NCBI GenBank assembly: GCA_017436645.1 | Contig: JAFSCR010000001.1 | Location: forward strand, 1-64,000 | Direction of reading: 5' to 3' | Source of the DNA: Clostridia bacterium | GTDB taxonomy: Bacteria > Bacillota > Clostridia > UMGS1883 > UMGS1540 | DNA length: 64,000 bases | Shown: piece after piece, positions 2,864 through 17,045 of the stretch | Layout: every line of letters starts with the position of its first letter | How positions within the stretch are numbered: the first letter of the stretch is position 1 | The notes under the pieces: model-generated | Seen by the model: only the letters and a program-made list of their open reading frames with translations | Databases searched by the model: none | Told to the model about the DNA's origin: nothing | Position numbers and translations under genes: made by a program

Positions 2864-4684
2864 TTATTCCTGTACGGGCTTTTTCGTAATGGCTTTCAAT
2901 ACAAAGAGAGCTGCTACTGTTAAAACAGCGCCAATTGCAAGAAGAACTACGGCATTTGTGAAAAATGCAGCTGCCAAGTACATGACAAAGGAAACCGCCG
3001 CCACCGTAACTGCGTAAGGCATCTGGGTGGAAACGTGGTTTAGGTGATTGCACTGTGCCCCTGCGGAGGACATAATGGTCGTATCGGAAATGGGAGAGCA
3101 GTGGTCGCCGCAAACGGCGCCTGCAAGACATGCCGACATACCGATAATAAGGTATACGCTGTCGCCGGGGAAGATTGCCGTTACAATGGGGATTAAGATA
3201 CCAAAGGTACCCCAGGAAGTACCCGTTGCAAATGCAAGTACACAGGCAACGAGGAAGATAATTGCCGGCAGGAAGTTTGCAAGACCTGCAGCGGCAGAAT
3301 CCATAAGGTTCCCTACAAAGACGTCAGCACCGAGAAGACCTGTCATATTCTTAAGTGCAGTTGCAAAAGTGAGAATCAAAATTGCAGGTACCATTGCAAT
3401 AAAGCCCTTCGGGATACAGCTCATTGCTTCCTTGAAGGTGATAAGCCGTCTTGCCATCAGGTAAATAATGGTAACAACGAGTGCTACAAGTGCGCCCCAG
3501 GGGAGGCCTACGGTAGCATCCGTATTGCCAAAGGCATCAATAAAGCTTGCACCGTCAAAGAAACCGCCAACATAGATAAGACCGATTACGCAAATGATAA
3601 CGAGAATCAGGACGGGCAGGATAAGGTCAATTACACGGCCTTTGGGATTTGCTGTTTCCTTTTCAACGCCTTCAATATCATCCTGACCGGAAGTGTGGAG
3701 GTCGCCCTTATGCATTGCATTGAATTCGTGCAGCTTCATGGGACCAAAGTCAAACTTCATAAGAGTAATTGCAATAATGAATACGAAGGTTAAAAGAGAA
3801 TAGAAGTTATAGGGAATGGCACGGATGAAAAGCTCAATGCCGGAATAGCCTGTTCCCTTAGAAAACTCAGAAACTGCTGCTGCCCAGGAAGAAACGGGCG
3901 CAATCATACAAATGGGTGCTGCCGTTGCATCAATCAGATATGCAAGCTTTGCACGGGAAATCTTATGTCCATCCGTTACAGGGCGCATAACGCTGCCGAC
4001 TGTAAGACAGTTAAAGTAGTCATCAATAAAGATGAGAACGCCTAAAATAAAGGTGGCAATCGCAGCGCCCACACGGGATTTAATATGGGTTTCTGCCCAT
4101 CTGCCGAAGGCTGCCGAGCCGCCTGCATGGTTTACAAGCGCAACCATGGCACCTAAAATTACAAGGAAGATAAAGATGCCGGCTGTACCGGACACTGCTG
4201 CAATAAGGCCTTCGTTGATAACACCGTCAAGTGCTTTGACGGGATGCCAGTTAAAGGTTAAAAGACCACCTAAAAGAATACCAACAAAGAGGGAAGAATA
4301 CACTTCCTTTGTGATAAGTGCCAGCGCAATCGCTACGAGCGGCGGCAGAAGTGCCATAAAGGTAGAATAGTAATTACTGTCTGCGGGGACTTCGCCTTTG
4401 CCTTCACAGGTTTCACATACCACTTTTTTGCTGCTCAGTTCTTCTGTTTCCTGTACAGCTAAAAGGGTAACCGTTCCTTCGCCTTCACAGGTGCCGCAGT
4501 CTTCACCATCTACACTGCCTGCACCGCTGCAATCCGCACAGGGAAAAGCATGGAAATAGCCTCTGCCTTCGCAGTCCGCACAAGATACGGTTGCATCGTT
4601 TGTTTTTACGAGAAAAGCACCTATGGCTACAATTGCAAATACAAGGATAATTGCAATTGCTTTGCCTAATACTCCTTTTTTCAT
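2864..4684 (-). CDS. NhaC-family Na+/H+ antiporter with N-terminal DnaJ-like zinc-finger module
   Basis: Polytopic transporter of the NhaC superfamily (PF03553), expected to exchange protons for sodium or an organic substrate. After a signal-anchor helix (about 7-27) come four CxxCxGxG motifs (CADCEGRG, CADCSGAG, CGTCEGEG, CETCEGKG) at about residues 35-100, the pattern that binds two zinc ions in DnaJ. About 490 residues of membrane protein follow, including the conserved FIDDYFN and APVSSWAA segments. The start is taken at 4684, where GGAGGG precedes ATG by five bases; an in-frame ATG at 4723 has no ribosome site. By the positive-inside trend the cysteine module would lie outside the cytoplasm. 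The fusion is unusual and its role is unknown. Confidence 0.85.
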   Translation of the reverse strand: MKKGVLGKAIAIILVFAIVAIGAFLVKTNDATVSCADCEGRGYFHAFPCADCSGAGSVDGEDCGTCEGEGTVTLLAVQETEELSSKKVVCETCEGKGEVPADSNYYSTFMALLPPLVAIALALITKEVYSSLFVGILLGGLLTFNWHPVKALDGVINEGLIAAVSGTAGIFIFLVILGAMVALVNHAGGSAAFGRWAETHIKSRVGAAIATFILGVLIFIDDYFNCLTVGSVMRPVTDGHKISRAKLAYLIDATAAPICMIAPVSSWAAAVSEFSKGTGYSGIELFIRAIPYNFYSLLTFVFIIAITLMKFDFGPMKLHEFNAMHKGDLHTSGQDDIEGVEKETANPKGRVIDLILPVLILVIICVIGLIYVGGFFDGASFIDAFGNTDATVGLPWGALVALVVTIIYLMARRLITFKEAMSCIPKGFIAMVPAILILTFATALKNMTGLLGADVFVGNLMDSAAAGLANFLPAIIFLVACVLAFATGTSWGTFGILIPIVTAIFPGDSVYLIIGMSACLAGAVCGDHCSPISDTTIMSSAGAQCNHLNHVSTQMPYAVTVAAVSFVMYLAAAFFTNAVVLLAIGAVLTVAALFVLKAITKKPVQE

Positions 4685-9786: not shown

Positions 9787-10599
9787 ATGAAACACGAAAA
9801 AAACATTCGAATTGCATTTCTTTTAAATCTTTCCTTTTCCGTTTTGGAATTTTTGGGCGGTCTTTTTACAGGAAGCGTTGCCATCATTTCTGATGCCGTG
9901 CACGATTTCGGTGATGCCTTAAGCGTTGGAATTGCTTGGTTTCTGGAAAAGAAAAGCGTGCGAAACCCCGATGATATATACACCTACGGCTACAGGCGTT
10001 TTTCGGTTCTCGGCGGTCTGATTACAACCATTGTACTGTTTTTCGCTTCTGTATTCGTTCTGCACCACGCTGTCATGCGGCTTCTCTCCCCCGTGCCCGT
10101 ACATGCAAGCGGTATGCTTATAATTGCGGTTTTAGGCGTACTTATTAACGGTGCAGCGGCGCACTTTACCCATGATGACCATTCTATAAACGGCAGGGCG
10201 ATAAATCTTCATATGCTTGAGGACGTACTGGGCTGGGTGGTGGTTCTTGTGGGGGCCGTGGTCATTCGGTTTACGGATTTTTATTTCATCGACCCGCTCC
10301 TGTCCATTGCCGTTGCCTGTTTTATTCTCGTCCACGTTTTTAAAAATCTCTTTTTAGTTCTCCGTATCTTTCTGGAGAAAATACCCGAAGGCATTTCTGT
10401 GCAGGAAATTAAGGGAGAGCTTCTGCAAATCGAAGGTGTTAAAGATGTCCCTCGCCTTTGTGTCCGCACCCTCGACGGCGAAACCCACGCGGCAGCCTTG
10501 CATATTATAACGGATGGGGATGCAACGGCATTAAAAAAGGCTGTGCGGGAAAAACTGATGCGGTATGGTATCGGACTGGTTACGATTGAAACGGAATAA
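9787..10599 (+). CDS. Cation diffusion facilitator (CDF) family transporter
   Basis: 270-residue metal exporter that uses the proton gradient to remove Zn, Mn, Fe or related ions. The membrane part (about six helices, 1-205) has the metal-site motif SDAVHDFGDA (residues 38-47) in helix II and LEDVLGWVVV in helix V (HMLED, where many homologues have HxxxD). A cytoplasmic domain of about 65 residues follows. Start at 9787 has GGGAGG upstream; the longer frame runs back through the regulatory region and the divergent tetR. Control by the adjacent TetR protein is strongly suggested by the operator. Confidence 0.9.
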   Translation: MKHEKNIRIAFLLNLSFSVLEFLGGLFTGSVAIISDAVHDFGDALSVGIAWFLEKKSVRNPDDIYTYGYRRFSVLGGLITTIVLFFASVFVLHHAVMRLLSPVPVHASGMLIIAVLGVLINGAAAHFTHDDHSINGRAINLHMLEDVLGWVVVLVGAVVIRFTDFYFIDPLLSIAVACFILVHVFKNLFLVLRIFLEKIPEGISVQEIKGELLQIEGVKDVPRLCVRTLDGETHAAALHIITDGDATALKKAVREKLMRYGIGLVTIETE

Positions 10600-10865
10600 T
10601 GACATAAAAAGCTTGTTCTTGCCTTTGGCGAACTGTTCGCATCCGTGGGATGCGTGTCACCATAGAGATATTTTAAAAATTCTTTGGCGATATACTCGCT
10701 CACGCTCGTGCGATATATTTGCTAACGCAAATTCGATATAACTTCACTTCGTTTCGTTGCGATATGATATAAATTCCTTTTCTCGTCCCGAAGGGACATA
10801 TCGCATCCGTCAGGATATATCGCGTACGAAGTACATATCGCAAATTCCGTCAGGAATTTATATCG
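10600..10865. repeat. Non-coding chain of small hairpins punctuated by GATATA/TATATCGC
   Basis: No gene is visible. From about 10685 a series of short hairpins (GTCCC/GGGAC, ATCC/GGAT, GTAC/GTAC, AAATTCC/GGAATTT) is separated by recurring GCGATAT or ATATCGC units, with loops such as GAA and GTCA. A larger hairpin (CATCC/GGATG) lies at 10639-10653. The unit resembles miniature palindromic repeats of other Firmicute intergenic regions; function is unknown. Confidence 0.6.
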
Positions 10866-10869
10866 CTGA

Positions 10870-10909
10870 AAAAAAGACAGATTTCTTTATCGAAATCTGT
10901 CTTTTTTTC
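10870..10909 (-). terminator. Terminator probably belonging to the tRNA operon, now displaced
   Basis: Ten-bp perfect stem GACAGATTTC/GAAATCTGTC (10876-10901) flanked by long A and T runs, working in both directions. It sits immediately beyond attL, where the 3' end of tRNA-Lys lay before the element inserted, so it is best read as the old terminator of the tRNA operon, now 5.1 kb away. Confidence 0.75.
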
Positions 10910-10954
10910 TGGTGATCCATCGGGGATTCGAACCCCGGACACCTTGATTAAAAG
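10910..10954 (-). repeat. attL: 45-bp fragment of tRNA-Lys 3' half
   Basis: Identical to 16022-16066. It is the original chromosomal 3' end of tRNA-Lys (CCA, acceptor 3' strand, T arm, up to the anticodon loop) cut off from its 5' half by the insertion. By itself it cannot form a tRNA. Confidence 0.93.
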
Positions 10955-11150
10955 GCAAAATAAGTTATAACCTTCTGTGCCCTTAAAAGCTTATAAACCC
11001 CCTTTTTACGGTGTTTTTCGCTCTTGGGTTTATTTCTGTTTTGCTATTGTTTTTCTAAAAGTGTGCAACAAACTGTGCAGTTGCACACTTTTATTTTTTG
11101 TTTTTTCTGTTTATTCGTTTTAAAATAATTTATAACGAATAACTATTTTT
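10955..11150. other. Left end of element: AT-rich, with strong hairpin and arm-like repeat
   Basis: No gene is seen. A perfect 13-bp stem (11057-11069 with 11080-11092) contains three copies of the hexamer TGTGCA or its complement and is followed by T-rich DNA. The 24 bases at 11057-11080 recur with two differences at 15926-15949 near the right end, in the same orientation. This looks like an integrase arm-binding site, and could also act as a terminator for rightward reading. Confidence 0.5.
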
Positions 11151-11552
11151 TTCCGACCCCCCTCGAAACGAGGGGGGCTGTGGGGGGAGTGCGCCCCGTC
11201 GAACACGTTTCATGTTGCGCCTCCGCAGAGGCGCAAAGGGGCGCCACCCTCGGCGTGCCCCGCCGAGGGATTTTGTTCGCTCCTCCTTTGGGAAAAGCCC
11301 GTTACGGAACGGCCGATTCGCAGACCCCGGGGGGCGCCGGCGTTTGAGGCGCAAGGGCTTCGGCGGGGAACCCGCCGAAATTAAATCAGGGTTTTTCGCC
11401 GCCCCGACAGCCGCAAAGCGGCGGACTGAAAAAGGAAAGCACCACAAGGAGGGCAAGGCGGCGAAAAAGCCACCACAGCGCCCGCACCCCGGACCGGGCG
11501 GCGCAGGGGCGAAACCGAGAGGAGCACCCGAAAGGGTTTTTTATTTTCTCGC

Positions 11553-11611
11553 CTTGTCAAGGTGGAGAAAATAAATTTTCGAAGAAAATTTATTTTACTA
11601 CCTTGACACGA
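11553..11611. repeat. Hairpin repeat copy A with AT-rich inner stem
   Basis: Outer stem TGTCAAGGT (11555-11563) pairs with ACCTTGACA (11600-11608). The inner 13-bp stem AAAATAAATTTTC (11568-11580) pairs with 11584-11596 around a GAA loop. The outer arms and their short flanks (GGAG, ACT, CGA) match copy B. Confidence 0.8.
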
Positions 11612-11700
11612 CGGGGAAAGCGGAAGCATGCTCCGAGCGGGCTGCGCCGCCACCCCTTTCTTGCGGATGCAGCCCGCCAAGAAACGTTTATTTTCTTTTT

Positions 11701-11747
11701 TTGTCAAGGTGGAGGGCCGCCTACGGCGGCCACTACCTTGACACGAT
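11701..11747. repeat. Hairpin repeat copy B with GC-rich inner stem
   Basis: Same outer arms as copy A, TGTCAAGGT (11702-11710) and ACCTTGACA (11735-11743), with the same GGAG and ACT junctions. The inner stem is a different sequence, GGCCGCC (11715-11721) with GGCGGCC (11725-11731). Confidence 0.8.
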
Positions 11748-12180
11748 ACGAAAAAGGAGCACAATGGAAAAGCGCCCCTAGGGCTTAGCCGACTTTTGCT
11801 CCTTTTGGTTTTTTGTTTTCTTTCCTTATGTGTGGCCGTTTTTTTTTTTTTTGGGTCCTTGCCCCCTTGCGGAGGGGGCAAGCCGCCGCAGCGGCGGGGG
11901 TGGCTACGCTAAAGCATAGACAAGTCTGCCGTGGAGCGAATTGGACAAAATTTCAGTTTTGCGCCCCTTGTGGCTTGAATTCGCGCAGCGAATTGCGCAA
12001 AACACAAATTTTGTTCACATTCGCGAGATATGCTTTTTTTCTTTTGATTTGCACTTGCGCAGCTGATGCGCAGCGACTGCTGCCCTTTAGGTGCAGCACA
12101 AAGCAAGGACAGCGAGCTTTGTTGAGAGAAACGCCTCGGGCGTTTCCTCATGGAGCATGCTTTTGTTTTTTCTTTTCCCC

Positions 12181-12446
12181 TTCTTGGCCGCACACAGCGA
12201 GCAGAGGGAGCGCCGCTCGACCGAAGGGAGAAGTGGGCGAGCCTGCGAGCGTAAAAGAAATGCTTTATGGTTTGCACGGAACCCCGGCAAGGAGAGCGGC
12301 GGCGAGGGGCGAAGCGTTCCCGCGGAGCGGAGCGGAGCAGCGAAGCCACCGCCACCGCGAACCGAAGCCAGGGCAAGACAAAGCAAAAAGAAGGCTTTTT
12401 TTATTTAATTCTTTTTCTTGGCCGCACACAGCGAGCCTGCGAGCGT
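12181..12446 (+). repeat. Direct repeats with an internal deletion or insertion
   Basis: A 22-bp sequence at 12181-12202 recurs at 12415-12436, and a 16-bp sequence at 12237-12252 recurs at 12431-12446. In the second copy the two blocks overlap directly at GCGAGC; in the first they are separated by a short hairpin-bearing stretch (CGAGCGGCG-type dyad). One copy is therefore related to the other by loss or gain between GCGAGC repeats. Confidence 0.7.
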
Positions 12447-12467
12447 CTCCTTTTTTGCACCAAATTG

Positions 12468-12497
12468 TTGACAAAAAGCAACCGGTTTTGTTATAAT
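12468..12497 (+). promoter_or_regulatory. Promoter of candidate small RNA
   Basis: TTGACA (12468-12473), 18-base spacer, TATAAT (12492-12497): both hexamers are consensus. It points at the minus-strand XRE gene, with no plus-strand reading frame behind it. Confidence 0.65.
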
Positions 12498-12503
12498 GTA
12501 ATT

Positions 12504-12563
12504 GTGTACCACATTCCCTCGCATATTGGCGGCAAGGCGGCCAAATTTCTGCGGGGGTTTTTT
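12504..12563 (+). ncRNA. Candidate ~60-nt small RNA with intrinsic terminator
   Basis: Predicted from about seven bases after the TATAAT box to the T run at 12558-12563. A closing stem CCCTCGC (12516-12522) with GCGGGGG (12551-12557) encloses a second stem TTGGC/GCCAA, and six T follow at once, which makes an intrinsic terminator. The last bases touch the stop codon of the convergent XRE gene, so it could act on that messenger or in replication control. No homologue is recognised and expression is untested. Confidence 0.45.
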
Positions 12564-12825
12564 AATACATGTATGTTTTTGCTTTTATTCTCAATTCGTT
12601 TAGAATCGTTTTTTCTATGCCTAGCCTTTTGGAAATTTTTTCCATATTTTTTATTTTGGGCGTAATATAGTCGTTTTCATATTTCCAGTATTGTGAACGG
12701 GAGATATTTAATATATTTGCAGTTTCCTGTTGTGTAAGCCCTAGAGAAACTCTCCTCCTCTTCAAGGCGTGCCCGAAAGTTCGGGGCATGCCTTCTTTTA
12801 TATTTAAAATCGTTTCTTTTTCCAT
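12562..12825 (-). CDS. XRE-type helix-turn-helix protein
   Basis: 87-residue DNA-binding protein. The HTH_3 fold spans about residues 17-72 (GHALKRRRVSLGLTQQETA, then SRSQYWKYEND). It is the last gene of the element's minus-strand set, 24 bases after the DUF4373 protein. Preceded by GGGGG. It is shorter than a phage CI repressor and has no C-terminal peptidase part. Role unknown; it could be a late regulator of the element. A candidate small RNA converges on its 3' end. Confidence 0.75.
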   Translation of the reverse strand: MEKETILNIKEGMPRTFGHALKRRRVSLGLTQQETANILNISRSQYWKYENDYITPKIKNMEKISKRLGIEKTILNELRIKAKTYMY

Positions 12826-12849
12826 ACTATCCCCCTTTTTTATTGGTGC

Positions 12850-13701
12850 TTAATTGGTGCAATTCCTTTCTTTTATTCTTTTTTCTAGCACTCTTTTTTC
12901 GAATTCCGCTATATCATAACTGGCATTGGAGCTATAGGAAAGAAAGTTGTTTTTACCGCTTATTTTCTTTTCTGTGCGCTTTTTTATTGCATGTTGTTCT
13001 CTTATTGCCTCAAACTGCATAACGTCTTTTACGCCGTCCTTAATGGCGTTTTTTAACACTGTTCTAGTCCAGTTCCAACCTTTTCCGTCTATTTTTGCAA
13101 GTTCAATTATGTATTTTATCACGGAAAATTCGAGTTGATTCTCTATTGACCGAAGTTCCTTCTTTACTTGATCGGTCATTGTCCCGAAAAGTTTCTCATA
13201 CAATTCGGCGGCTCCGGCAGCATCATCAATCTGTTTATTTCCTTCTTTCTTTCTTTGATTTGTTTTGTCGACATTTTTTTGATAAATGTCGACATTATTT
13301 CCTAAAATGTTTACATTTTGGGGGATTTGCTCTTCACGAATCAAAAGTAATTCTTTTTTTATGACCGTTTCTTTACGCCGACGGGTGGCCTCGAGAAATC
13401 GTTTCTGTATGCCGGAAGAGGTTAAAATTCCAAATTTTTCCAGTATTTCTTTATTGAAAATTTCTCTTTTCACGGCTGCTGCTATTATATTTTCAAGCGC
13501 TTCGATAGTTAGTCCGAGCTCCCTCGCAAATAATAATGCTATATCCTTTTCCCAGTTTATGAAATAACCTTCCCCGCCATATATTTTTTGCCATAACTTT
13601 ATTATAACGGCAAAACCTTCGAGGCCGTATTCGCATTCTATCAGCTGCAGTTTCGTGTCTAGATTCGTGTCGAGCGGAAAAAAGTGAATTCCGCTTTGCA
13701 T
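12850..13701 (-). CDS. Phage-type replication protein, DUF4373 N-terminus with DnaD/DnaB_2-like C-terminus
   Basis: 283 residues. The N-terminal part (about 1-100: FFPLDTNLDTKLQLIECEYG, GFAVIIKLWQKIYGGEGY) matches the Lin1244/Lin1753-like DUF4373 domain common at the start of phage replication-initiation proteins. A linker rich in Asn, Lys and Gln follows, then about 170-230 resembles the DnaD/DnaB_2 helical domain (LRSIENQLEFSVIKYIIELA then WNWTRTVLKNAI). Such proteins recruit the host helicase to the replication origin. GGAGGG precedes the ATG. In this element it is the best candidate for replication initiation after excision. No ATPase or primase motif is seen. Confidence 0.75.
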   Translation of the reverse strand: MQSGIHFFPLDTNLDTKLQLIECEYGLEGFAVIIKLWQKIYGGEGYFINWEKDIALLFARELGLTIEALENIIAAAVKREIFNKEILEKFGILTSSGIQKRFLEATRRRKETVIKKELLLIREEQIPQNVNILGNNVDIYQKNVDKTNQRKKEGNKQIDDAAGAAELYEKLFGTMTDQVKKELRSIENQLEFSVIKYIIELAKIDGKGWNWTRTVLKNAIKDGVKDVMQFEAIREQHAIKKRTEKKISGKNNFLSYSSNASYDIAEFEKRVLEKRIKERNCTN

Positions 13702-13702
13702 T

Positions 13703-13903
13703 TTAATCCCTCCTGAAACAATCTATAAATTTTGAAAGTTCCAATACAGCCTCCCGAAAGTGTTTCGGGTCGTGTTCGTTTATAATTTCGAGTGTACTTT
13801 CTATGGCGGCGGTCAGCGTTGCAAACAAATCGCTGTCCGTTGCTTTTCCTTCAAAAAGTGTGGTGGCCTTTTTTCCGTCGAATGTGATTTTTACTTCTAG
13901 CAT
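13703..13903 (-). CDS. Small element protein of unknown function
   Basis: 66 residues, acidic, starting MLEVKITFDGKKATTLFEG with an amphipathic helix after residue 25 (DLFATLTAAIESTLEIINEH). It sits one base before the replication protein start region and 12 bases after the excisionase-like gene, so it is co-transcribed. AAAGGAG lies upstream. No family is recognised. Confidence 0.65.
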   Translation of the reverse strand: MLEVKITFDGKKATTLFEGKATDSDLFATLTAAIESTLEIINEHDPKHFREAVLELSKFIDCFRRD

Positions 13904-13915
13904 GTTTTTTCTCCT

Positions 13916-14128
13916 TTACTTACTGTTTTCCCTTCGCAACCTTGCACCGAGTTCCCCGCCCTCTGATAACCATTTGTCGAGCATGTCGGCGAAGAAGTAT
14001 TTTCTAACGCCTATGGTGAAGAAAGTTCCCGGCGGAAAAAGTTCTTCTTTTTCAAGCTGATACAGCTTGTTTCTTCCACATCTAATTTTTTTGCATGCCA
14101 TTTCTCGGGTAAGTGTTTCTCTCGGCAT
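13916..14128 (-). CDS. Excisionase-like helix-turn-helix protein
   Basis: 70 residues with a winged-helix/HTH_17-type pattern: TREMACKKIRCGRNKLYQLEKE as the helix-turn-helix, then a short wing (FTIGVRKYFFADMLDKWL). Proteins of this size and place in integrative elements are recombination-directionality factors (Xis) or small regulators. Its ATG shares a base with the stop of the Cro-like gene (TAATG), indicating translational coupling. It is basic and lacks other domains. Confidence 0.7.
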   Translation of the reverse strand: MPRETLTREMACKKIRCGRNKLYQLEKEELFPPGTFFTIGVRKYFFADMLDKWLSEGGELGARLRRENSK

Positions 14129-14325
14129 TATACCCCTTCCTTTCTTAATTCTTCAAGCGTAACATCAAGAGCATCACAAATTAAAAAAAGCTCTTCCGCA
14201 GAAAGTTTCCTTTTGCCGTTCAGTATGGCGCTGAATGTGTTTTGATTAATTCCGGTCTTTGCTGCAATGGTTTTTTGTTTTATGCCGTGCTTCTTCATAA
14301 ATGCTTGGATTTGTTTATAAAACAT
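14128..14325 (-). CDS. Cro-like XRE repressor/activator
   Basis: 65 residues from the start at 14325 (MFYKQIQAFMKKHG), where AGGAGC lies seven bases upstream; the longer frame to 14391 runs into the promoter. An HTH_3 domain fills the protein (IKQKTIAAKTGINQNTFSAI then LSAEELFLICDALDV). First gene of the minus-strand operon, divergent from the CI-like gene, as Cro is from CI or Str from Stl. It probably binds the ACAGA/TCTGT operators between them. Confidence 0.78.
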   Translation of the reverse strand: MFYKQIQAFMKKHGIKQKTIAAKTGINQNTFSAILNGKRKLSAEELFLICDALDVTLEELRKEGV

Positions 14326-14339
14326 TTTCTTGCTCCTTT

Positions 14340-14442
14340 CTACAGATTTTCTGTACATTTGTATAATACTACATATTTTCTGTAATGTCAATATAATTTT
14401 ACAGATTTTCTATATTTTTTTATTGACAATACAGAAAAAGGG
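14340..14442. promoter_or_regulatory. Operator cluster of the divergent switch
   Basis: Four related sites with the half-site TACAGA or TCTGTA: a full dyad at 14341-14354 (TACAGATTTTCTGT), partial sites near 14374-14384 and 14399-14412, and ATACAGAAAA at 14429-14438. They overlap both divergent promoters. Confidence 0.65.
14363..14391 (-). promoter_or_regulatory. Promoter of the Cro/xis/replication operon
   Basis: Minus-strand TTGACA (14386-14391), 17-base spacer, TATTAT (14363-14368). A TTACAGAAAATATGTA site fills the spacer. Confidence 0.75.
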
Positions 14443-14451
14443 TGCTAGAAT
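14423..14451 (+). promoter_or_regulatory. Promoter of the CI-like repressor and integrase
   Basis: TTGACA (14423-14428), 17-base spacer, TAGAAT (14446-14451), with ATACAGAAAA at the start of the spacer. Confidence 0.75.
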
Positions 14452-14473
14452 GAGGAAAAAGGGGGTTTAAAAT

Positions 14474-14803
14474 TTGGATAATTACATTATTGGTGAACGT
14501 GTAAAAAAGCTTCGTGAGGCAAGAGGAATTTCTCAAAAGGATTTTGCAAAAAAATTAAATATAACCGCCTCCCGCCTTTCAAATTGGGAAAACGGCTATA
14601 ATAAAATTCCTTTTGATTTTATTCCAGAAATTGCTTCGTTGCTTGGTGGGTCCGTTGATGCGCTTCTCGGTTTAGAGTTTACGGAGAGCCTTTCGAGTGA
14701 TTTGTTTTATTATTATGTCACTTTGAATGACGAGGGCAGAGAAGCACTTTTGAAATATGCTGCAGATTTATGCGAGATTTCAAAATATACTTCAAAGGGG
14801 TGA
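14474..14803 (+). CDS. CI-like XRE repressor of the element
   Basis: 109 residues starting at TTG, with GGGGG nine bases upstream. The HTH_3 domain is at about 7-62 (GERVKKLREARGISQKDFA, then SRLSNWENG). A short C-terminal helix pair (YYVTLNDEGREALLKYAADL) is typical of small immunity repressors without a protease domain. It is divergent from the Cro-like gene and directly precedes the integrase (4 bases), the arrangement of repressor-integrase pairs in small integrative elements. Without an autoproteolytic part, induction would need an antirepressor or another signal. Confidence 0.8.
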   Translation: MDNYIIGERVKKLREARGISQKDFAKKLNITASRLSNWENGYNKIPFDFIPEIASLLGGSVDALLGLEFTESLSSDLFYYYVTLNDEGREALLKYAADLCEISKYTSKG

Positions 14804-15925
14804 TTCTGTGGCAGATAAAAGAAAACTTGGACATATAAAAAAGCTTGAAGAAGGAAAGTTTTTAATCCGTGTATCTATGGGCTTCGATGAGTTTGGAAAG
14901 CGGCTGCAGGTTTCCAAAACTGTTTTCTGCGCAAGCGAAAGAGAAGCGGAAAAAGAGCTGGCCCTTCTATATGCTGAGCGTGAACAACTTGCGGAGGACC
15001 GCAGAAGCGGCGCCCCGAAAACCTTGGCGGCGCTTTATAGGGAATGGAGCGAGGCGCACGTTTCAACGCTCGAGGAAAACAGCAAAGCTTTTTATGCTTC
15101 ACTTTGGGAGAATCATATCAAGGAATTTGGGAAGCTTAATCTTTCGGCGCTCTCTCCTTCTACATGTAAAAAAATCATAGGAAACGAAAACAGCCGTACT
15201 GCGGAAGCTGTTTATAAAATGCTTAAGGCCATGTGCAGTAAGGCTGTTTTATGGGGCTATATAGAAAAGAATTACTTTGAATATATAGATGCCCCAAAAC
15301 ACAAGGCTAAAGAAAAGCTGATTTTCGATGAAAATCAGCTGGGCGCCGTTGCACGCTTTGTGCGCAGCGAGGATCTAAAATATCAGTTACTTTTCTATTT
15401 TGCCGCAGTGTGCGGTATGCGGCGGCAAGAAATCGTTGCTCTTAAGTGGGATGATATAGACTTGGGCAGCTGTTCTTTTCGTGTTTGCCGTGCGGCCGTC
15501 GCTGTGGCGGGAAAAGGAACAGTTTTAAAATCTACGAAAACGGCAAGCAGCTGCCGCCGGCTTCACCTTCCCGAATTCCTCGAGCGCCTTTTAATTCGGT
15601 ATCAAGTGGAACAATTTGAATGAAAAGAAAAAATGGGGACTTTATGGAAAGACGGCGGCTTTATCTTCACACAACATAACGGCGAGATTATGAATGTTAC
15701 CACGCCTTCGCATTGGTGGAGCAAATTTCTAGACGAGCACAGGTGTTTACCGAAAGTTACGTTTCACGGACTTCGGCACACTATGGCTAGCCTTGCAATA
15801 AAAGACGGTGCTGCGCTTCCGGTTGTATCTTCTATTTTGGGACATGCACAAACTTCCACGACGGCGAATATTTACGCCCACGCCCTGCAGGGATGGGACG
15901 TCTCCGTTTTAGAGAGTATGGGCGA

Positions 15926-15949
15926 AAAAGTGTGCAATGAACTGTGCAG
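15926..15949 (+). repeat. Arm-like direct repeat near the right end
   Basis: 24 bases inside the integrase gene that match 11057-11080 at 22 positions in the same orientation. Both contain two TGTGCA hexamers spaced identically. Confidence 0.55.
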
Positions 15950-15988
15950 CGGGGAAGGTGACAAGCATTTTTCAGGCAAAAGAAAAAA

Positions 15989-16019
15989 CGCCGAAACCTT
16001 TGAGGTTTCAACGTTTTTT
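15989..16019 (-). terminator. Element-borne terminator next to tRNA-Lys
   Basis: Stem GAAACCT/AGGTTTC with loop TTG, flanked by A and T runs on both sides, inside the last codons of the integrase frame and directly downstream of the restored tRNA-Lys. It can end the integrase transcript and, on the minus strand, replaces the tRNA terminator displaced by the insertion. Confidence 0.75.
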
Positions 16020-16021
16020 CG

Positions 16022-16066
16022 TGGTGATCCATCGGGGATTCGAACCCCGGACACCTTGATTAAAAG
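16022..16066 (-). repeat. attR: 45-bp repeat within intact tRNA-Lys
   Basis: Same sequence as 10910-10954. This copy, brought in by the element, completes the tRNA gene so that the host keeps a functional tRNA-Lys. Confidence 0.93.
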
Positions 16067-16097
16067 TCAAGTGCTCTGCCAACTGAGCTAATGGATC
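16022..16097 (-). tRNA. tRNA-Lys (anticodon TTT)
   Basis: 76 nt including encoded CCA. Acceptor GATCCAT/ATGGATC with discriminator A, anticodon loop CTTTTAA. Last gene of the five-tRNA operon and the integration site of the element. Confidence 0.97.
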
Positions 16098-16100
16098 ATA

Positions 16101-16176
16101 TGGCTGGGCTGGCTGGACTCGAACCAACGAATGCAGGAGTCAAAGTCCTGTGCCTTACCGACTTGGCTACAGCCCA
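16101..16176 (-). tRNA. tRNA-Gln (anticodon TTG)
   Basis: 76 nt with CCA. Acceptor TGGGCTG/CAGCCCA, anticodon loop CTTTGAC. Confidence 0.96.
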
Positions 16177-16179
16177 ATG

Positions 16180-16257
16180 TGGGGTGGATAGTCGGATTCG
16201 AACCGACGGCCTCTAGAGCCACAATCTAGCGCTCTAACCAACTGAGCTATACCCACC
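16180..16257 (-). tRNA. tRNA-His (anticodon GTG)
   Basis: Acceptor GTGGGTA/TATCCAC with the histidine-specific extra G(-1) facing C73, anticodon loop TTGTGGC, CCA encoded. Confidence 0.96.
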
Positions 16258-16261
16258 ATAT

Positions 16262-16338
16262 TGGCGCGCCTGAAGAGACTCGAACTCCTGGCCCACTGCT
16301 TAGAAGGCAGTTGCTCTATCCTGCTGAGCTACAGGCGC
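16262..16338 (-). tRNA. tRNA-Arg (anticodon TCT)
   Basis: 77 nt with CCA. Acceptor GCGCCTG/CAGGCGC, anticodon loop CTTCTAA. Confidence 0.96.
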
Positions 16339-16349
16339 ATGTGTAGTAA

Positions 16350-16423
16350 TGGAGCGGGTGATGGGAATCGAACCCACGCGATCAGCTTGGAAGGCTGAGA
16401 TTCTACCATTGAACTACACCCGC
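16350..16423 (-). tRNA. tRNA-Gly (anticodon TCC)
   Basis: 74 nt with CCA. Acceptor GCGGGTG/CACCCGC, anticodon loop CTTCCAA. First gene of the operon. Confidence 0.96.
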
Positions 16424-16440
16424 ATGAGCTGACTTGACTA

Positions 16441-16469
16441 ATTATAGCAGAAAACACCTGCATTGTCAA
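16441..16469 (-). promoter_or_regulatory. Consensus promoter of the tRNA operon
   Basis: Minus-strand TTGACA (16464-16469), exactly 17 bases, TATAAT (16441-16446): a full consensus promoter 18 bases upstream of tRNA-Gly. Confidence 0.92.
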
Positions 16470-16577
16470 GTAAAACTTTCAAAATAATTAAAAATATTTC
16501 CATACTCTGAAAGTTTGTGCGGATTTCGCATATTTTTGCCGTCTGTTCAGTATACTACCTTTGAAAGAGGTGATTTT

Positions 16578-17045
16578 TTGCGTAATAAAACAAAAGTTTT
16601 TGTTCTTTCCATTCTGATTGCGGTGGGTATCGGTGCGCTATCGGGATTTTTGACCCGAGGCAGCATGGACCGCTTCGAGGCTCTCACAAAGCCGCCCCTC
16701 GCCCCTCCCGGCTGGCTGTTTCCGGTTGTATGGGGCATCCTGTTTATACTCATGGGCATCAGCGCCGCTATCATTTACCTTTCGGAGAGTCCCCAAAGAA
16801 CACGGGCGCTGAAGGTGTATACGCTGCAGCTTATTGTAAACTTTTTCTGGAGCATTCTGTTTTTTAATCTTGAGGCAAGACTTTTCGCCTTCTTTTGGCT
16901 TCTTCTGCTCCTTGCCCTCGTTCTTCTTATGTTTGTTCTGTTTAAAAGAATTTCGCCCACAGCGGCCTATTTACAAATCCCATATATTCTGTGGCTTCTC
17001 TTTGCCGCATATTTAAACGGTGCCATCTACCTTTTAAATCGCTGA
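16578..17045 (+). CDS. tspO: TspO/MBR-family membrane protein
   Basis: 155-residue, five-helix membrane protein of the translocator/benzodiazepine-receptor family, which binds porphyrins and related ligands. Family marks are KPPLAPPGWLFPVVWGILF (after helix 1), NFFWSILFFNL and the final PYILWLLFAAYLN. Start is the TTG at 16578 with AAAGAGGTGA upstream; an ATG at 16515 would add residues unlike the family and lacks a ribosome site. It overlaps the convergent yqeK 3' end by 12 bases. The physiological ligand is unknown. Confidence 0.9.
   Translation: MRNKTKVFVLSILIAVGIGALSGFLTRGSMDRFEALTKPPLAPPGWLFPVVWGILFILMGISAAIIYLSESPQRTRALKVYTLQLIVNFFWSILFFNLEARLFAFFWLLLLLALVLLMFVLFKRISPTAAYLQIPYILWLLFAAYLNGAIYLLNR

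Follow-up and report, generated by a model that had tools for sequence, protein, structure and literature searches.

The DNA analysed here is a 64-kb window from contig JAFSCR010000001.1 of a Clostridia bacterium (genome G000, referred to below as the own genome), and all coordinates of the element described are positions in that window. At the 3' end of a tRNA-Lys gene it carries a small integrative element bounded by an exact 45-bp direct repeat (10910-10954 and 16022-16066, spacing 5112 bp), which alone accounts for the 25-mers that recur in the window. An earlier note, made from the sequence alone, had described a repeat of the tRNA 3' half bounding 5.1 kb, and this holds exactly. The right copy forms the 3' portion of a complete and intact tRNA-Lys(TTT) gene (16022-16097, minus strand), the last member of a five-tRNA cluster Gly-Arg-His-Gln-Lys, while the left copy, also on the minus strand, is a second tRNA-Lys 3' half. 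The left repeat is flanked on its host side by a perfect hairpin, an inverted repeat with 18-bp arms that are 100% complementary (10868-10909); before the insertion this hairpin probably served as the host's terminator for the tRNA cluster. Next to the rebuilt tRNA-Lys, towards the element, is a different terminator (15982-16020, minus strand), similar to the sequence that G004, a genome of the same genus, has in the corresponding position. Together with the tRNA repeat, the different terminators at the two ends fit insertion into the tRNA 3' end, whereby the element would rebuild the tRNA and supply its own terminator, the old 3' half and the old terminator being displaced to the far end.

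Inside both repeats we identified arm-type integrase sites: a left one with two half sites (11057-11080, plus strand) and, 22/24 identical to it, a right one within the 3' end of the integrase gene (15926-15949, plus strand). The best 20-mer between the arms is 18/20 identical, where 60 shuffles gave no better than 16/20, and the distance from arm start to core is 102 bases on the left and 96 on the right. Such repeats flank the core on both sides in all three elements with mapped ends, namely this one and its relatives in genomes G078 and G112 (see below); the arm motif of G078 is similar to the one here, as its reverse complement, and G112 has a doubled motif of its own. Helper-embedded phage-inducible chromosomal islands (PICIs) are reported to have a doubled motif at attP as well (PMC10111431). 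A truncated left end was considered and rejected, the left arm-type repeat being in place; both ends look complete, which would also be compatible with an internal deletion. The locus thus has what marks a tyrosine-integrase tRNA element: a tyrosine integrase, an attachment (att) repeat that rebuilds the tRNA, and arms on both sides.

Eight element proteins were scanned against Pfam and PHROGs. Five genes run leftwards on the minus strand, beginning with a 65-aa Cro-like helix-turn-helix (HTH) protein (14128-14325; HTH_26 7.3e-13, HTH_3 8.4e-13) and a 70-aa Xis/AlpA-like HTH protein (13916-14128). The profile matches of the latter are weak (HTH_17 in Pfam, E 0.0072; phrog_66, E 0.0021), and we call it Xis-like because of these matches, its position and its 36-40% identity to stretches in the relatives (40% in G078 and 36% in G112, in the corresponding position). 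There follow a 66-aa protein with no significant match in Pfam, PHROGs or PADLOC (13703-13903), a 283-aa replication initiator of the Lin1244_N/DUF4373 family (12850-13701; PF14297 2.2e-23; phrog_2562, replication initiation, 1.3e-45) and, as the last gene of this cro-xis-rep operon, an 87-aa HTH_3 regulator (12562-12825; 1.6e-12). On the plus strand lies a 109-aa CI-like repressor with HTH matches only and without a peptidase domain (14474-14803; HTH_3 5e-15), and the integrase frame begins directly after it, at 14808. PADLOC, run on six proteins, returned generic HTH matches for the three regulators and a weak mad1 match for the Xis-like protein (E 0.0026). Capsid, tail, terminase and relaxase families gave no significant match in the eight scanned proteins, the initiator having a sub-threshold tape-measure match (E 0.0092), and none of them was recognised as a structural, packaging or conjugation protein. 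All element genes except the integrase are open. The earlier note's list of an integrase, a CI/Cro-like switch, an excisionase-like and a replication-type protein, without capsid, tail, terminase or conjugation gene, agrees with these profile matches, weak as the Xis match is, and so does its PICI-type split, with integrase and repressor facing one way and cro, xis and rep the other.

The integrase frame (14808-16021, plus strand; PF00589 in both parts, phrog_1) is interrupted by an in-frame TGA at 15621-15623, a feature absent from that note. The upstream part is 271 aa long and carries the first catalytic arginine region; the motifs that we take to be the HxxR, H and Y of the family are placed downstream of the TGA. 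The intact integrase of G078, used as query, aligns along this frame across a single internal TGA. Since TGA terminates 5 of the 39 complete long open reading frames (ORFs) of the window, it is to be read as a stop here and not as a sense codon, which leaves another genetic code unsupported as its cause. The same count argues against the view that the stop codon arose by mis-assembly or mis-sequencing and that the element is fully intact, to us the least probable of the explanations considered here, even if the downstream part is open and matches PF00589 and the other genes are unbroken. With the frame cut before most of the catalytic residues, this copy is probably unable to integrate or excise by means of its own integrase, and thus probably stranded. 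We note that after the TGA the frame (15624-16091) stays open through the antisense of the integrated-state tRNA-Lys.

Between the two divergent gene sets lies a switch region (14341-14414) with three TACAGATTTTCTGTA-like operators starting at 14341, 14370 and 14400. They comprise TACAGATTTTCTGTA and two one-mismatch forms, are palindromic, and have only one other counterpart in the window at up to two mismatches. The operators lie in and around a promoter-like site of the cro-xis-rep operon (14363-14391, minus strand, 11/12 consensus) and just upstream of one for the CI-integrase operon (14423-14451, plus strand, 11/12, with TG before the second hexamer). This arrangement of operators and divergent promoters has the layout of a CI/Cro switch, with putative repressor binding.

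Within the rep gene we found three candidate origin iterons of consensus AATGNNNACATT, 21 bp apart (13264-13317; starts 13264, 13285 and 13306). When eight rep genes were surveyed with up to two mismatches allowed, three iterons at this spacing were present in four of them, at the same place (this one and those at loci L010, L011 and L048). The rep gene of L012 has two such sites, that of L046 one such site plus a 21-bp-spaced repeat of different sequence, and that of L013 only 21-bp-spaced repeats of different sequence. Several sites are palindromic or nearly so, suggesting a function at the DNA level, and the iterons are candidate origin sites for the initiator. A comparable placement is described in PMC6316719 for phage SPP1, whose oriL is part of gene 38, which encodes the phage's origin-binding protein. 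The three-iteron gene at L010:7968-8855 is a lone DUF4373 initiator gene with host-type neighbours and, by eye, none of phage type.

The left third of the element (10955-12503) is palindrome-rich and without coding signal. Its G+C content is mostly 0.50-0.60, compared with 0.32-0.48 across most of the remainder, and the 3-base periodicity of 10955-12560 is 0.8, as against 6.0 for rep and 5.4 for the integrase. Seven ORFs scanned in it gave no Pfam match at E<=0.1; as DNA it matches nothing among the plasmid or phage records and, in the own genome, only itself and stretches of 34-76 bp. Hidden genes were rejected on these grounds (PHROGs was not searched for these ORFs), and the earlier note's description of a left third that is mostly non-coding stands. 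Of 62 windows of 100 nt (31 on each strand), 29 fold with z < -2. Numerous strong hairpins in a long region that shows no coding signal would be expected if the element were an integrative mobilizable one, with nothing for transfer but an origin of transfer (oriT) in its left third, moved by a conjugative element; relaxase-less iOriT elements of this kind form an accepted class according to PMC11389934. We regard this as very improbable here, since no relaxase occurs among the scanned proteins and the left third is unlike any plasmid record, whereas the CI/Cro-like switch and the phage-type initiator point to phage-like control.

The upstream integrase part matches 4 of 391 genomes of the class at E<=1e-30, the own genome included; the others are G289 (48% identical), G078 (46%) and G112 (39%), and in tblastn pieces identity is 44-50% for G078 and G289 and 37-44% for G112. 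In G289 (L050) the integrase is present and the element ends are unmapped. G112 (L051) and G078 (L049), which belong to other families than the own genome, both carry the element at a tRNA-Lys(CTT) gene. In G112, a 47-bp repeat with a spacing of 4506 bp encloses the gene set of this element in the same order: an intact integrase (386 aa, PF00589 7.8e-25), a repressor (102 aa, HTH_3 1.8e-16), a Cro-position protein of 69 aa with no Pfam match, an HTH_17 protein (65 aa, E 0.0012) and a Lin1244_N initiator (147 aa, 2.4e-18), with three further small ORFs, one of which has a weak CopG-antitoxin match (7.9e-5). In G078, a 46-bp repeat with a spacing of 8365 bp encloses an intact integrase (PF00589 1.4e-30), a repressor with a Peptidase_S24 domain (2.5e-20), a small HTH protein with a sub-threshold match to a terminase-family HTH (E 0.0024) and an Xis-like stretch, after which comes a primase-type protein. 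No structural family was detected in the eight proteins of G112 and nine of G078 that were scanned (Pfam only, E<=0.01, with some ORFs outside the scan). Since both elements are small, have an intact integrase and no structural gene that we could find, small size may be native to such elements. At E<=1e-75 the G078 integrase has the own genome only among 398 genomes of the phylum, and at E<=1e-60 the G112 integrase is confined to G112 among four genomes of its family.

We read the locus as a minimal phage-related integrative element at the tRNA-Lys 3' end, most likely a satellite-like hitch-hiker, with a probability of roughly 0.6. In such an element, the tyrosine integrase would bind the doubled arm sites to the left and right of the core and insert the circle, the tRNA being rebuilt. 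The CI-like repressor, bound to the three operators between the divergent promoters, would hold the cro-xis-rep operon off. On derepression, Xis would favour excision and the DUF4373 initiator would replicate the circle from the iterons in its own gene. Transfer would then proceed through the particles or pores of another element, which would be needed because no gene for them was found.

The main rival, which we consider unlikely and yet the most serious, is that the locus is what remains of a full tRNA-Lys prophage after the loss of all that lay between rep and the left att, the left third being scar and drift. Both att arms would survive such an internal deletion, the integrase is already interrupted, and the surroundings of close initiator relatives (L011, L012 and L046) have, by eye, the appearance of phage early regions. 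Furthermore, the tRNA-Lys 3' sequence occurs in five viral contigs (44-bp pattern with three two-fold positions), in two of which, L065 and L068, from other hosts and with phage-like genes by eye, it stands beside an integrase of their own, different from the one here (28-33% identical). Several observations argue the other way. The gene set recurs in G112 and a similarly compact element in G078, both with intact integrases and no structural gene found, and the genes here other than the integrase are open. The left third shows neither a match to a phage record nor a coding trace. The short integrase piece of L068 reaches only 33%, and integrase identity to phages is low: the G078 integrase matches 2276 phage records, with 26.2-28.6% identity among the 20 matches listed, and the upstream part of the one here is found in 5 of 9 viral contigs at 22-30%. 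Matching of an integrase alignment gave 1 of 88 viral contigs, at 19%. For plasmids the corresponding figures are 580 records for the G078 integrase (22.6-26.5% among the 20 matches listed) and 35 records for the upstream part (21.5-28.3% among the 8 matches listed). The mapped relatives, at 4.5 and 8.4 kb and with no structural gene found by Pfam, also gave no sign of being the ends of a larger prophage or integrative and conjugative element, the finding that the earlier note had named as the one to speak against its proposal.

A number of points nevertheless weigh against the satellite-like reading. Only two comparable elements could be mapped at both ends, and they differ from this one. The G112 initiator is half as long (147 aa) and 29% identical over 112 residues, no iterons of the kind described occur in its gene, and relative to the core the integrase of G112 is on the anticodon side, whereas that of this element and that of G078 are on the 3' side; G078 has a 620-aa primase-type protein (AAA_25, Toprim, DnaG zinc-ribbon) in place of this initiator. 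The iterons here encode a repeated peptide and could possibly be a protein repeat instead. Promoter-like sites are about twofold more frequent than expected across 10800-16200 (13, compared with 6.1 in shuffles, standard deviation 2.9), and in the AT-rich G112 element they show no clear excess (39, compared with 32.3, standard deviation 5.6). With its integrase interrupted, this copy would be mobile only putatively. No packaging signal or oriT was recognised in the element. Finally, neither a helper prophage nor a phage portal (0/1) turned up in the own genome, which at 94% completeness does not prove their absence; the portal control was positive in 4 of 14 genomes. The terminase profile phrog_2 has two matches in the own genome and also matches 11 of the 14 control genomes, so it is unspecific. 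On contig C19, a 441-aa terminase-large-like ORF stands beside a tail-like neighbour (the pair at L064:1731-3713) with host genes around, and the three stops in the matched stretch are all upstream of the start of the ORF; this pair is probably a prophage remnant. On contig C33 there is a weak phrog_2 match (19.4 bits) in a 768-aa frame. The satellite proposal of the earlier note therefore keeps its gene layout, with no structural gene found, and loses ground on the interrupted integrase, on the failure to find a helper prophage or packaging signal, and on the comparison with PICIs given below. The case also shows that satellites called from gene layout need a check for broken integrases.

We then compared the element with known satellites. 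PICIs, as defined in PMC6092414, have a divergent repressor with the integrase on its side and xis, pri, rep and the origin on the other, an att site never occupied by prophages, no structural or lytic genes and a size of about 15 kb, together with phage-dependent induction, interference and packaging in phage particles. The element resembles PICIs of the SaPI type in its terminal direct repeats, in the orientation of integrase and repressor one way and xis and rep the other, and in that no structural or lytic gene was found among the eight proteins. In contrast to the PICI order, no primase was found and the candidate iterons lie within rep rather than after it; unlike PICIs, it has no interference or terS gene that we could find, and its integrase is interrupted. 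Because it measures 5112 bp rather than about 15 kb and its att site is not exclusive, the tRNA-Lys 3' sequence lying beside an integrase in the phage-like contigs L065 and L068, we do not class it as a PICI. Closer in size are the phage-inducible chromosomal minimalist islands (PICMIs), described in PMC10803314 as satellites of about 6 kb (the first 6110 bp) with large non-coding regions and without capsid remodelling genes, their model comprising an integrase, AlpA and a DUF3987/DUF5906 primase at fis in Vibrionaceae. Small size, integrase, AlpA/Xis-like HTH protein, replication gene and large non-coding region are shared; the element departs from the PICMI model in its tRNA-Lys site, its DUF4373 initiator, its CI/Cro-like switch and the lack of a primase match. 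Phage satellites generally span 7-20 kb according to PMC13376191, which also reports that excision and phage induction were shown for StCI of Streptococcus thermophilus. The element here, known from sequence alone, resembles StCI in its Gram-positive host, direct repeats, integrase, regulators and replication protein, and differs in its integration site. Its initiator belongs to the same family as the Lin1244_N/DUF4373 modules of phages (phrog_2562; Bacillus phage Pavlov, Listeria phage B054), and several initiator relatives share the 21-bp iterons at the same gene position; unlike this element, genomes of the Pavlov/B054 type are 40-48 kb long, and their initiators are 35-42% identical over 43-50% of the protein. 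A literature search found no title or abstract start describing such tRNA-Lys elements in Clostridia, most subscription journals lying outside that search.

At the right end of the left third stands an orphan promoter (12468-12497, plus strand) with 12/12 consensus, an 18-bp spacer and TG before the second hexamer. Of the five exact consensus promoters in the window, the other four precede, within about 110 bases, a tRNA or a purine-rich stretch with a start codon (by eye). It is followed by a candidate small RNA of about 60 nt that ends in a hairpin and T-run (12504-12563, plus strand; fold of a 59-nt stretch -22.6 kcal/mol, z -2.85), and the consensus promoter and terminator together suggest a small RNA gene at 12468-12563. 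Rfam reported only tRNA at its gathering threshold in 10000-17000. Close to the far end of the G112 element, an exact consensus promoter (L051:11409) precedes a hairpin with a T-rich tail (-23.2 kcal/mol, z -4.98), with no ORF of 50 aa listed in between. This promoter is oriented oppositely relative to rep and its surroundings have no visible sequence likeness to 12468-12563, and both stretches are candidate small RNA genes.

A narrower version of the satellite-like reading, which we consider distinctly doubtful, would be a rare, dispersed clostridial micro-satellite of 4.5-5 kb at tRNA-Lys, reduced to an integration module, a Lin1244_N initiator whose gene here would contain the origin, a CI/Cro-like switch and, towards the far end, perhaps a gene for a small RNA. 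Were this so, any effects on a helper would, without packaging or interference proteins, stem from DNA sites or RNA of the non-coding third, and the integrase function of this copy would have to be supplied externally or by two parts produced separately. If the small relatives work, the lower size limit of satellites in Clostridia would be an integration module, a switch and a replication gene, and the 4.5-kb G112 element with its intact integrase would be a convenient model of what a minimal satellite needs.

The earlier note had suggested searching for copies at the same site and for empty tRNA-Lys sites. G112 and G078 carry relatives at tRNA-Lys(CTT); their initiator differs or is replaced, and the left third is unmatched in plasmids and phages. 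As for empty sites, G004, of the same genus, and G005, of the same family, carry the Gly-Arg-His-Gln-Lys cluster, and G003, of the same genus, has Gln-Lys at a contig start. No such element occurs in the 15-16 kb beside the tRNA-Lys genes of these three genomes, where only weak HTH or short matches were seen. The left flank, a cation-efflux-type gene (by eye), matches only G004 among these relatives, at another position of the same contig, so that there is no clean before/after pair with matching flanks. Behind the tRNA-Lys of G004, about 56 bp are 82% identical to element sequence, and in G005 (L028) the last 18 bases of the tRNA-Lys at 4141 recur 208 bp downstream, at 4349. Both may be scars of older insertions, in which case the site would look like a hotspot.

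Relatives of the initiator were found in 4 of 45 candidate stretches of genome contigs (L010, L011, L012 and L013), of which the last three resemble phage early regions by eye. The initiator also matches 31 of 50,697 phage records and 14 of 72,556 plasmid records, and none of these matches covers 80% of the protein; neither of two stretches from viral contigs proved to be a relative. At E<=1e-15 it is found only in the own genome among 28 genomes of the order. Of six genomes of the family, four match at E<=0.001, the three other than the own genome with short C-terminal pieces (18-25 bits). The 5549-bp record MT838208 was considered as a circular relative and rejected, as the record is linear and only the initiator matches among the element proteins.

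The left third also contains two copies of the palindrome TGTCAAGGTGGAG...ACTACCTTGACA, detected by pattern match at 11555-11608 and, with a different middle, at 11702-11743. The pattern TGTCAAGGTGGAG...CTACCTTGACA, with variable middle, occurs in 4 of 391 genomes of the class, the own genome included, in distant Clostridia; the loci outside the window are L052:325-362, L053, L054, L055 and L057. We rejected the idea that these palindromes are characteristic of the element family, since in the stretches inspected they do not lie beside the relatives of this element. In G374, and for one of the two copies in G172, the palindrome sits at a contig end, and it is also present in a 5.7-kb viral contig that encodes, by eye, a Zot-like P-loop protein.

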